Assembly (NCBI RefSeq): GCF_021134715.1
Contig: NC_060020.1
Span: forward strand, 6,138,001-6,202,000
DNA length: 64,000 bases
DNA from: Daphnia pulex
Taxonomy: Eukaryota > Arthropoda > Branchiopoda > Diplostraca > Daphniidae
Direction of reading: 5' to 3'
Shown here: positions 35,381 through 41,089 of the stretch, piece after piece
Numbering within the stretch: position 1 is the stretch's first letter
Layout of the letters: every line of letters starts with the position of its first letter
Made by a program: the position numbers and the translations under genes
Notes under the pieces: model-generated
What the model was told of the DNA's origin: nothing
The model's input: the letters and a program-made list of their open reading frames with translations, nothing else
The model's database searches: none

Positions 35381-35569
35381 AGACTTTCTTTTTATTTCAA
35401 AAGAGAGAACAAATCCATTTGATTTTATAGGAATTTATAGAAAAAAAAATTTATAATATGGTTTAATAACAATTTCTGGCATGATAAACGCACCCCATAA
35501 TGAACAGGACATTGCTCGGAGATGTAGCTTTAATGTAGGAAATGTAATGGTGTCTACATCGACGGTATA

Positions 35570-36435
35570 GGGGAGACTGGAGTAAAACGGGACGGTTTTT
35601 GTTTCCCCCCTATATCTCCCAAACTAATTATTGAATTTCTTTAAAATTTTGTTTTTATGTATTCCATATTGTAATGAACCCCCCATATTTTTTATATAAT
35701 TTTATAATGAACCATTTCCCCATAAAATACCTTTAAAGTTTCCTCAGATTTGTGGGAGGGGCCTATTTTGGGGGGTAATTGAGGACACTGGGGTGGGTGA
35801 TGAGGGACGTCCTCCGTTTTCGCCTTAAAATTCATCAATAAAATTAAAAAAAATTGAAAAAGTGTTCCACTGCATATACTCTTTGAGTTTATAAATGTTT
35901 CAAATTGATTATTGTGTTAATGAACCTTTTTTCTTATAAATACAAAAACCCTTATGGAGCAGTAGGACATCCTGCGTTGCTAGGTAACGAAATCGAGCCT
36001 CTTAAAAATGCTGTACGCTGATTGGTCCGTAACTGTCCCAAATTAGCCAAAAACAGCTGTCCCGATATCCCGGTTTAGACACTTTTTTTTAAAAGTTCAT
36101 ACTGTCTAAACTAATCGATCTCAAATTATAATTTCTGTTTTAAACGATCAAGAAATGAATCAGCTTCATTTCCATATTAAATTTACATGCCATTAGCGTT
36201 TATTTGTTTCTTCAAACATAAAATGGCGGAGACAAAAATTTCTAAAAAAAAACCGTTTTTTTTGTTTTGTCAATAACTCATGCAGTTATTGACAAAAACC
36301 AACCAAATTTCATGCCAAATTAGATTATACAGATTTACATAACATACTAAAAATTTTTACAGTTTTATTAACATCTACTATTTTTCCCCCCACTGTCCCT
36401 TTTGACCCGGTGTCCCGTTTTACTCCAGTCTCCCC
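35570..36435 (+). mobile_element. Non-autonomous TIR element, copy 1 (866 bp, TA-flanked)
   Basis: The element starts GGGGAGACTGGAGTAAAACG and ends with the reverse complement of the same sequence. The terminal inverted repeat is 24 bp and extends to GGGAC. A TA dinucleotide lies on both sides (35568-35569 and 36436-36437), as for a TA target duplication. There is no long open frame, so it depends on a transposase elsewhere. A nearly identical copy lies inverted at 44280-45144. The TA duplication suggests the Tc1/mariner-type insertion mode, but the long GGGG termini are unlike common mariners, so the superfamily is open. Confidence 0.85.
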
Positions 36436-37069
36436 TACTGTAAGAGTGTTTCAATGATATCCAAAAATATACACCGTATGCACAAAAGTGTACCATACGA
36501 CAAGGATGAGTTCTAATAATCCATTTTAACTACGGGAAATTACATAAACGTGTTACTGCTATCAGTGTCAATCCATAGCAACTATACCGTGGACATCCGT
36601 TCAGATAAGACGTATTTCTCATATACATGCCCTCATATTTACGTACAATAAGCGTACACTGAGCATCCATTTACCAGCGTGCTGAATTTGGATGTGTTTA
36701 TATATCCATGAAACGTCCTAGGGAAATAGTGTGCACGGGGAGCGAAAACGACACCTGCTACCCGCGACACTGCCCAGCTAGCACGAGTTCTCCCAGATAG
36801 TGAACAAAACACGAACACGTCAAAAATCTCCGCACACATTTTTTCCCTCGTTTTGTGAGTGAACATATCACTCACAGTTCACTCCCAAAATGTATACTTT
36901 TTCTTACTGCTCACAAATCCCGCACAAATACGAACAAGCTAGTTTTATAATAATTTTGACATTTTTTACGTTTAATAAAACTGAATGATAAATTTACTCA
37001 AAAACACCAACTTTTCTTCTATGAATTGATTATGTATTGATATTCACTCAATTTTATTTTCCATGAGAA

Positions 37070-37870
37070 GTGGAAAAGCCACATAACGTTCACCTCCTTC
37101 TTCTTCAGCCTCTTCACAATTAAAAACATTTGGTACAAGAAAAATTTTATGCAAAATGAATGCTACTGGCCATAGTTGTAAGGTAGGAGAAAGACAATCA
37201 ACATATTTGATAGACAAAATTGAATTCGATTCAGAGCCTTTAATCCTTTCAACAAATAATTCCCAGCACTCCCGGAGAGATTTTTGTTCGTTACGAAGGT
37301 GGCCAAGAAGTTTCGTAACTCAGTAGCACCATCGACATCGTTGTCATCTACAAGGATTTCTTCAATATCAGCGTGATGGAAGTCTTGCTCGTTGACTTCA
37401 TTCTTCTCAGTTGCATAGTCTGAGTCGCTGTCCGAAGAGTTGTATGTCGATTAATCACAGCTTTCTAAAGGGACACCTTCATCACTGACGACACTTTCCA
37501 AATCATATTCAGATTCTAGTCCTTCATCAAATGATTCGTGGCTTACAGTGCTCTGTCGAAGGCTATCATCCCTTTCTATTTGGTGAACGGAGAAAAACTC
37601 TACATTGTCATTGTTGGAGTCATCATAGGATATTTCCTCTTCATCGTCACCCATAAAGCCGCTCTCTGTCATACATTCATCCCCCCAGCTCACGTTCGTT
37701 TCTTCTTCAATGGCATTTGTCAAGGTGTGCAAAAAACGATTGCGCAGTTGACGGGGTTTGACATTTTCTTTCCTCTTCTTAAACAATTTTGACATGCCTA
37801 CTAAAAAATGAAAGGTTAAAGAAAACCTTGAATAACAACGGTAGACAACTATTGTAATTATTACCTCCAA
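37070..37870 (-). pseudogene. Acidic ORF resembling the N-terminus of a transposase-associated protein
   Basis: The clean open part is 37451-37870. The likely start is the internal Met of MSKLFKKRKENVKPRQLRNR near 37795, followed by a very acidic Ser/Asp/Glu region and a stop after VPLESCD. In the frame to the left, the sequence continues with SSDSDSDYATEKNEVNEQDF and an LRNFLATFV stretch to about 37070, so the stop at 37451-37453 looks like a break in a longer protein. A basic start, an acidic linker and a helix-rich segment are typical of proteins encoded by large transposons in invertebrates, but I cannot name the family. It lies divergently from the plus-strand gene in the same unit. Confidence 0.4.
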
Positions 37871-38869
37871 CAGTCCTTGTCTTTCGCAAGTTTACAGAAT
37901 GTTCTGAAAGAGCCAACTTATCCAGCCTCAATTGGACTCGCAACCTCTAAATCTAAAAGCAAACAGCACGAGTATTAAATCAGGTTTACATCTATGAGGT
38001 ATTGTCTCCAATTGTTTGTACCTGAGGATGAGTTTATTTTTTACAGAACACTAAAAGCTCAATGGCTAGTTTATAGGAAGTATGATGTGTTTACTTTTTA
38101 GATAATCATAAAAACACCTGTTCAAAATATTAAAAAAAAATTCATCAATATCATTTCCATGAATGACAAGTGCTGATTAAATTTTTTTACCTTATTTTAA
38201 CTGCAACAATAAAGATCTCACAATCAATTAAGTCCAGGGCAATGTAATAAGTGCAGTTTTTAATGAAATGAAAGCCAAGCACTAATTTATAATAGCCGTG
38301 TCAAAAAGAACTGATCCGGACGCCATTAAAAAATGCAACTGCAATTTTGACAAGTCCCAATTATCGATATTTAAGAAAATTGCAGTATTGACATGTTTGA
38401 AACGTAGAATTAAAAACTTAATTTTTTATACAATGTTTGAATCACCATTTACAACTTATTTCAAAATTATATAAAATTTAAAAAAATTAACGAACTCATT
38501 AATTATCGGTGCAAAAGCAGAACTAATTTTTATAATTAAAAATGTTTCATCTGGCGACGTTGTTGTCTACTATAGCTTGTACGGAATTAGTAAGAAAGAC
38601 TTGAACAAATGGCGGATTTGATCTCGTTAATGCCATCTAAAAATTGATTTTTTCACAATATTTCGCACAGAAAAGGTGAGAACACTTGTTACTTATGTAA
38701 TGAATTACAACATATTTTGTTTTCAGTCAAGAAATTTTAAGTGTATCGTAGTATATACTTTTGCTAAGCAAATGCCGGTTGATTATCATAAAGGCCACGC
38801 TACTTCTATACATTAGAGATGTTCACAATCGACAACTTACTGTATTTTATTTACAAATAGGATCTTGGA

Positions 38870-39885
38870 ATGACTAAAACCGCCATTTCATGGAAGTATA
38901 TATTAGCAGAATTGTTTGTGGAAGACAGAACAGAACTTGCAATAGTCTCAGAGCGGTGGACCATTGATGAGAATGTTCTTAAGTATCCGTCCAACTTGAA
39001 GGGACCAAAAAGGATGAAGAGCATAATGGATCATGTTATACCAGAAGATTCCTGGACCGAGTATGAATACAGGAGGATTAGAGTCTGTGGTAAGTTCACT
39101 CATGAGTGACATTTTGCATTAACGATATGATGTTATATTCCTATTGCTGACACTGTGTGTTTATCTGATTTCAAAATAGTCTCAGAGAGGTGGCCATTGC
39201 TTAGGATGTTCTCAAGTATCCGTCCCACTTGAAGGGACAAAAAAGAATGGAGAGCATCATGGATCATGTAATACCAGAATATATACCTGGACCGAGTATC
39301 AATACAGGAAGGAGGCTTAGAGTCATTGGTAAGTTCACTCATGAGTAACATTTTGCATTAACGATATGATGTTATATTCCTTTGCTGACACTGTGTGTTT
39401 ATCTGATTTCAATAGTCTCAGAGAGGTGGCCATTGCTTAGGATGTTCTCAAGTATCCGTCCCACTTGAAGGGACAAAAAAGGATGAATAGCATCATGGAT
39501 CATGTAATACCAGAAGATACCTTGACAGAGTATCAATACAGAAGGCTTAGTCTTTGGTAAGTTCACTCATGAGTGACATTTGCATTAACGATATGATGTT
39601 ATATTCCTTTGCTGACACTTTGTGTTTATCTGATTTTTAAAATAACTACATTTCAATTATTTCACTTTAGGTTACTGGAATCAGGCAAAAGAAATGGATC
39701 AACGTGCAGCTGAAAATGAATCTGACGGCTTGAAAACAACTCATGAAACAAGGAAGAAGAGTTTGTCGAGAAAACCTGCAATTTACTTTCCCAGTTCTTT
39801 TTTCCTTGGAAATTGCAAAAGAACACATTCTTCATCATCCAACGAGAATTCAAGAGCCATTGATCCAATTTCTCCAGTGATTTAA
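38870..39885 (+). CDS. Two-exon gene of the inserted unit, uncharacterised domain
   Basis: Exon 38870-39089 and exon 39671-39885 join in phase (TGTG / GTTACTGG) to encode 144 aa, if the two broken exon copies between them are skipped. The first part reads LAIVSERWTIDENVLKYPSN and KSIMDHVIPEDSWTEYEYRR. This is reminiscent of the N-terminal module (an x-VVP-x-W-I start, a tryptophan, then a YxVRVLG-like strand) found in many transposon-linked proteins of Hydra and Daphnia, sometimes with a DUF4806 domain. The C-terminal half is Ser/Lys-rich and shows no domain. An acceptor-like AG at 38860-38861 hints at an upstream non-coding exon. The function is unknown. Confidence 0.45.
38946..39640 (+). 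repeat. Three tandem copies of a ~235-bp exon-intron unit
   Basis: The exon part starts TCTCAGAG at 38946 (copy A), 39180 (copy B) and 39416 (copy C), and each is followed by GTAAGTTCACTCATGAGT and the same intron sequence. Copy A is open. Copies B and C both lack one base in the codon after the conserved TGG, and both have a TAG a few codons later in the original frame, so they share a broken ancestor. They retain splice sites. Confidence 0.8.
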
Positions 39886-41089
39886 TTGTTAACTCAATAT
39901 GCAACTGTTGTGTTCAATTCTGACTTGGTGTTATCTTGTATGTCATGTGTTAACTAATATGTCATGTGTTCTAATGGACAATATAATCAAGTTAAGTGCA
40001 CTTTACGTATTATTTATTAAAAAATTACAACGACTAGCAGCAAATAATAGTACAGATTTTATTCCCTAAAAATGAACAAAATAGACCCAGTCCACGCACT
40101 GGGAAGGTCTTTTGTTCACTTTTGTTCGTGAACTGTTCACGCACTGAGGGCGGCAATAGGGAGGAAAATGTACACTCCATGTTCATGTACATTGTTCATG
40201 AACAGGGAGTTTTTGTTCACTGTTTGTTCACGAACTGTGCGAACTTTTGCTAGGTGGGTGGCTACCTGGGGGGTCGACACTGGCTACCCCAACACTGGCT
40301 ACCCGACACTGGCTACCCATAAGGCCGACACTGACTACCACGACACTGGCTACCCCCATTTGCTACCCCTGGAAAACGGTAGTTAAACAGAATACTCTCC
40401 TGACCTTGTGTGTTGTGCCTAACTGATTATTGACTATAACAAACAGTTTAAGGCTTTTAGCATAGTCTGCCTATTGTGGTTTAATTCTTTGATACAATTT
40501 TCTTTGAATCAACCAAGTAAGTTGGAATTAAATGTGTTGTTTGGAATATTTTGATCTCCAGTACATTTAAATGTATTATAGAGTGTTGACTGTGAAGTCT
40601 TGGATGATTGAAATTGACTGCGAATTCTCCAAAACTTTTTGTTCGCAGTCAATTGTCCAAGACTTTTTGTTCACAGTCAACAGTCGACACTCTATAATAG
40701 ATTTTAAGGTACCGGAGATCAAAATATTCCAAATGACAAATTTAATTCTTGGTTGATTCAATGCATATTGTATCAAAGAAGCATATCACAATAGACAGAC
40801 TATGCTAAAAGCCTTAGACTGTGTGTTACAGTCAATAATCAGCCGGCCACAACACACAAGGCCAGGGAAGTATTCTTTTTAACTACCGTTTTCCAGGGGT
40901 AGCAAATTGGAGGTAGCCAGTGTTGGGTAGCCGGAGTCGGGGTAGCTAGTGTCGGCCTTATGGGTAGCCAGTGTCGGGTAGCCAGTGTTGGGGTAGCCAG
41001 TGTCGACCCCCCAGGTAGCCAGTGTCGCGGGTAGCAGGAGTCCCCATGCCGTGGATGAAGACGCGGGAAAAGACCCCTAGATATATTGT

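Follow-up and report, generated by a model that had tools for sequence, protein, structure and literature searches.

Animal transposable elements of the TRC branch of the CACTA superfamily are described by DeMarco and others (PMC1636069) as having CCC tips and 2-bp target duplications. In that account the duplication is given for 7 of 14 copies of SmTRC1, and the terminal inverted repeat (TIR) of the Tribolium element begins CCCTAGTAGCACC. Plant CACTA elements (En/Spm) are listed with CACT(A/G) ends and a 3-bp duplication in Table 1 of PMC4423477, which also describes a second open frame carried by CACTA elements. From Daphnia pulex, the CACTA elements CactaA1-A10 were classified by their TIRs (PMC2884549). 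Palindromic target motifs reaching past the duplication are reported for TIR transposons in Drosophila (PMC3276498). A narrow check of the open-access literature searched found no target motif for CACTA elements, and the word 'preference' is absent from the text of PMC1636069. An open-access literature search for a Daphnia CACTA element inside a foldback found no paper, one for Daphnia foldback transposable elements returned papers on other animals only, judged by title, and a search with the element ends gave no paper related by title among those listed.

The insertion and its host foldback

The window is the whole stretch of DNA analysed, 64,000 nucleotides of Daphnia pulex. It contains a unit of 3486 bp (36773..40258) which is, very probably, an internally deleted, non-autonomous animal TRC/CACTA element that entered an older foldback by cut-and-paste at a preferred phase. 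The left TIR of the unit, CCCAGCTAGCA, is at 36773..36783 and the right TIR, TGCTAGGTGGG, at 40248..40258 (both +); the target duplication, TG, is at 36771..36772 and 40259..40260 (both +). Over 45 bp the two ends are 76% complementary, and about 11 bp of this stretch form the strict TIR. The left arm of the foldback breaks at 36773, where GCGACACTG meets CCCAGCTAGCA, and resumes at 40258/40259, where TGCTAGGTGGG meets TGGCTACC. The unbroken counterpart of the site, GCGACACTGGCTACC, is present in the right arm at 41014..41028 (-) and reads GGTAGCCAGTGTCGC, its reverse complement, on the + strand. Removal of the unit and one TG in silico gives GCGACACTGGCTACC, identical to the site in the opposite arm. 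The initial annotation had described a left arm cut by a unit of ~3.5 kb with 11-bp terminal repeats and a right arm that keeps the site uninterrupted, and both statements were borne out. It had also read the nesting order and the TG duplication from this molecule, a reading now supported by a 2-bp duplication around a second copy and by the matching flanks of 26 out of 28 insertions (see below). The nest that it placed at 36754-41038 was confirmed, with limits slightly wider than given.

The host foldback comprises a left remnant at 36742..36772 (+), with end A (GCGAAAACGACACC...) followed by the first unit as far as GCGACACTG, where it is cut, and a larger part at 40259..41050, with the rest of the left arm, the spacer, the right arm and end B (GGCATGGGGACTCC on the - strand). 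The ends differ, A being GCGAAAACGACACC and B GGCATGGGGACWCC. The folding energy of the 790 nt at 40261-41050 is -336 kcal/mol, compared with an average of -86 over 20 shuffles. End A was found with at most 3 differences in 13 of the 16 other foldback loci scanned (L010, L014-L021, L023, L024, L026 and L027). Both ends were recognised in the window, L014 and L023; a direct 8-bp duplication, CTCATTTC, flanks L014 and is absent in the window copy and L023. The foldback is older than the insertion because of the nesting. Its superfamily is uncertain, and it is treated here as an element in its own right. Tandem units in long inverted arms are also the architecture of Galileo, a foldback of the P superfamily; a target duplication of 8 bp, the length expected of hAT or P elements, is seen in one of the three foldback copies, L014. 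A short way left of the nest lies a MITE-like unit (35568-36437, about 870 bp), bounded by a perfect inverted repeat of 26 bp, TAGGGGAGACTGGAGTAAAACGGGAC, whose arms are 818 bp apart.

Other copies, the short family and coding content

With 40 of 70 candidates scored, the genome holds at least 98 matches to the window region, mostly to the foldback. The initial annotation had made its reading depend on a second copy with the same ends and on homology that stops at 36773 and 40258. A genome search located a second full copy, L009, at C3:6014753-6018441. Its end-to-end alignment with the window unit consists of two pieces, one of 2865 columns at 98% and one of 1330 at 95%, whose overlap lies within tandem repeats. 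Its flanks are unrelated to the window site and carry CT on each side. In two apparent cases homology runs beyond the boundaries, and neither is read as shared element sequence. The second match of L009 overshoots 40258 by 9 bp because the flank of L009, CTGCTACC, resembles TGGCTACC; the match of L010 extends 16 bp to the left of 36773 because L010, too, lies within a foldback unit. A search with the initial 128 bp of the unit matched six places in the genome, namely the window, L009, L010, L011, L013 (5 nt missing at the start) and a truncated copy on C5. The left boundary at 36773 is common to L009 and also to L010 and L011, there as CCCACCTAGCA.

In the genome the 11-bp end (C or G at base 5) has 138 matches, versus 52 for a reversed control. 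Among the 100 of these 138 matches listed, many come from a shorter family that has the same ends and measures 1422-1667 bp (26 pairs read). In all, 30 two-ended insertions were read, of which two (L107 and L109) were dropped as repeating the flanks of L105, leaving 28 distinct insertions; 12 single-ended flanks served for background composition only. The 2-bp flanks match in 26 of the 28, these being the window unit, L009 and 24 of the 26 short-family copies. The two short-family copies with unmatched flanks are L066/L067 and L121/L122, and one of the 26 (L077/L078), with CCC on each side, could be read as having a 3-bp duplication. L013, a relative that shares its right end with the window unit and whose left tip is altered, has TA on one side and AC on the other; it is excluded from the 28.

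L105, L107 and L109 (C10:8292055-8406879) are three short-family copies with near-identical flanks, which suggests segmental duplication, not separate transposition. The short-family pairs at C10:8301656 and C10:8309573, which stand outside the counts, have on their left the same seven bases as the L105 copy. At L048, L069, L072 and L073, CCCAGCTAGCA is followed by a common flank of ~20 bp with few differences; here it seems to be internal to another repeat, a trap for counts based on the motif alone. A diverged right end of the unit is found three times at a spacing of ~10.25 kb in L043-L045 (C5:2404000-2433999), suggesting a tandem segmental array. L046 also has a diverged right end, and no transposase was recognised by eye among the frames of at least 100 aa in L045 and L046.

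The unit carries the remnant of the N-terminal part of a transposase gene at 37229..37762 (-), with 73% identity to residues 26-212 of the L011 frame and one internal stop; the open frames over it are 37163-37450 and 37451-37891. L011, on C12, has the left end in common with the window and holds open frames of 402 and 237 aa on the opposite strand, in different frames. The 402-aa frame has 82 matches in the genome. Similarity between the window unit and L011 extends to unit position 461 and resumes from 458. At this internal deletion junction (37230..37233), positions 2021-3579 of L011, ~1.56 kb with the transposase core, are missing, and the same is true of L009. The deletion, being the same in the window and L009, is therefore older than at least one of the two insertions, and from this, movement in trans is inferred. 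The window copy, which lacks the transposase core, presumably moved in this way, and for that lack it is filed as non-autonomous. No intact mobiliser of the 3.5-kb subfamily was found, the two frames of L011 being broken apart.

Transposase_21 (PF02992) gave no direct Pfam match on L011, and a search of the whole genome found it at seven places, none of them L011. DUF4218 scored 26.6 bits on L011, 27.3 on its relative L097 and 24.3 on L098 (cut-off 27). A profile of these three sequences matched L100 with a probability of 96.7% over 115 columns and an E of 4.3e-10, the latter for one comparison with few sequences; L100 itself scores 38.9 bits for Transposase_21, above the cut-off. In the alignment of all four, DG, DAPA and C..C are invariant. 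L100 (C7:6378000-6380500) contains a Transposase_21-bearing open frame of at least 714 aa and has an equal-scoring match at C8:6104333; both are possibly intact CACTA-type transposase genes. The best E in a PDB sequence search with the L011 transposase was 0.098. The window's own open frames had no Pfam match. A second gene, divergent to the transposase, is represented by an exon-like open frame at 38861..39109 (+; no Pfam match) and a last exon-like open frame at 39646..39885 (+); the joined product also had no Pfam match. Three imperfect tandem copies of exon-like plus following intron-like sequence lie at 38937..39636 (+), spaced 227-239 bp apart. This tandem unit of about 224-239 bp is present three times in the window and about four times in L009 (3412-4316), so that its copy number differs between near-identical elements.

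Target motif and insertion phase

The target motif was derived from the 26 distinct short-family sites alone, including the two with unmatched flanks and none of the foldback insertions. Half-site positions are counted outward from the element, with the 2-bp duplication as bases 1-2. Of the 52 half-sites, 27 have C at the seventh base (p 2e-6) and 22 have G at the eighth (p 7.6e-5); both p values are per position and uncorrected, with 18 positions examined. The two together, CG at bases 7-8, occur in 14 of 52 half-sites, or 13 of 48 when the two unmatched sites are left out. Among 5000 sets drawn at random from window positions, none had as many as 14 at any position. CG is present on at least one side of 13 of the 26 sites and on both sides of one. 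When the site matrix was run over an idealised array of the 14-bp foldback unit, the TG phase ranked first of 14 (4.33; next 2.12). It kept this rank at each of the five motif widths used and in 79% of 2000 bootstrap replicates, versus 7.5% with random-site matrices.

On real sequence the window site ranks 16 of 1176 around the joined flanks and 9 of 148 within its own arm; eight positions in the arm score higher, four of them at the TG phase in other units and four at other phases. Its counterpart in the intact arm of L014 ranks 10 of 276. The site of L010 ranks 4 of 598, with the right flank assumed. When three short-family sites were held out, their ranks among 1176 positions were 257, 58 and 3; the score of the median held-out site is equalled or exceeded by 11% of random positions. 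The site of L009 is average (400 of 1176), and the motif fails to explain it. A foldback target was considered for L009 and rejected: none of the foldback loci compared matches its joined flank of 600 bp, which matches itself and, over one 44-bp stretch (77-80%), eight short-family loci, and its own flanks show inverted matches of 12-17 bp only. The motif is thus real as a statistic but weak, and accounts for the phase in foldbacks, not for every insertion.

A copy of the subfamily in another foldback, L010 (C3:7964666, - strand), is inserted at the same phase as the window unit, with CGACACTG followed directly by CCCACC; its duplication is unreadable because its right end is deleted. With 0 mismatches the left-junction pattern is found in the genome at the window and L010 only, and with at most 3 mismatches it has 114 matches (78 for the reversed control). 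The right-junction pattern has the window as its sole exact place and, with at most 3 mismatches, 43 matches (31 for the control). Both foldback insertions found at this junction sit at the TG phase. They could descend from one event if an element-bearing foldback had been copied or transposed and its arrays later reshuffled, as the same phase and orientation within the unit would allow. This is improbable, as the first 461 bp of the two elements are just 82% identical and the window insertion is in the first unit after end A, while that of L010 lies several units further in. Moreover, the window copy has its deletion junction in common with L009, whereas its alignment with L010 is made up of different pieces. 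Coincidence, with no real target preference, is somewhat less improbable but still unlikely. Just two such insertions were found, the L009 site misfits the motif, the window site is not the top position of its real arm, and the TG phase did not lead in every bootstrap. Against this, the CG signal of the 26 sites was unmatched by the 5000 random sets, and the motif was derived without the foldback insertions.

The preferred reading, two insertions guided by a weak preference, can be put as a sequence of steps. A transposase like that of L011, encoded elsewhere, would recognise the CCC...GGG ends and would cut with a 2-bp stagger at TG, and insertion into the foldback would then leave the TG duplicated, as is observed. 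The insertion sits at the phase of the 14-bp unit that best fits the weak preference for CG at the seventh and eighth bases outward. This preference is a statistical pattern of the sister family, which has the same 11-bp ends and may be served by the same transposase. The wider proposal, to which we give an even chance, is that animal CCC-type CACTA (TRC) transposases have a palindromic target preference extending 6 bp past the 2-bp duplication (CG-N4-NN-N4-CG), and that foldbacks built of tandem 14-bp units with this half-site act as phase-locked landing pads. If so, nested insertions would fall at a predictable base. The target motif can be checked in any arthropod genome.

Comparison with known CACTA elements

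The initial annotation had been unable to place the unit in a known transposon superfamily. This view was not upheld, since the ends, the length of the duplication and the related transposase place the unit in the animal TRC branch of CACTA. CCC tips are present in the window copy, its relatives and the short family, and the 2-bp duplication is of the length published for animal TRC elements. The tip and 3-bp duplication of plant-type CACTA elements were not found, and Tc1/mariner was rejected, TA accounting for 2 of the 26 duplications. The unit might instead belong to another superfamily with 2-bp duplications (e.g. Tc1/mariner, or one as yet unclassified) and carry a captured piece of a TRC transposase gene. 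The lack of a direct PF02992 match and of a transposase core in the window copy would agree with this, but it is very improbable: the duplications are of many kinds, L011 has the same left end together with coding parts, L013 has the same right end, and CCC ends are the mark of TRC elements described in PMC1636069.

As an animal TRC/CACTA element, the unit is of a kind already known; what is new here is the target motif of the short-family sites. For one CACTA-type family of this genome, a single molecule together with 28 insertions settles the termini and the target duplication. The comparison with CactaA1-A10 (PMC2884549) was made by description, and the unit may coincide with one of these families. 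It resembles plant CACTA elements in having a second gene and a Transposase_21-type transposase, the latter here indirect, and differs from those in PMC4423477 in having CCC tips and a 2-bp duplication in place of CACT(A/G) and 3 bp. Transposase_21 is reported for SmTRC1 (PMC1636069), whereas this unit is linked to it through relatives only. The TIRs of the SmTRC1, Tribolium and Aedes TRC elements are given in PMC1636069 as 54, 27 and 10 bp, compared with about 11 bp here. With these three elements, as described there, the unit shares CCC ends, a 2-bp duplication and the occurrence of truncated copies. With SmTRC1 in particular (PMC1636069) it shares a non-autonomous state, also shown by copies of that element, and a region of tandem repeats, located 3' in SmTRC1.
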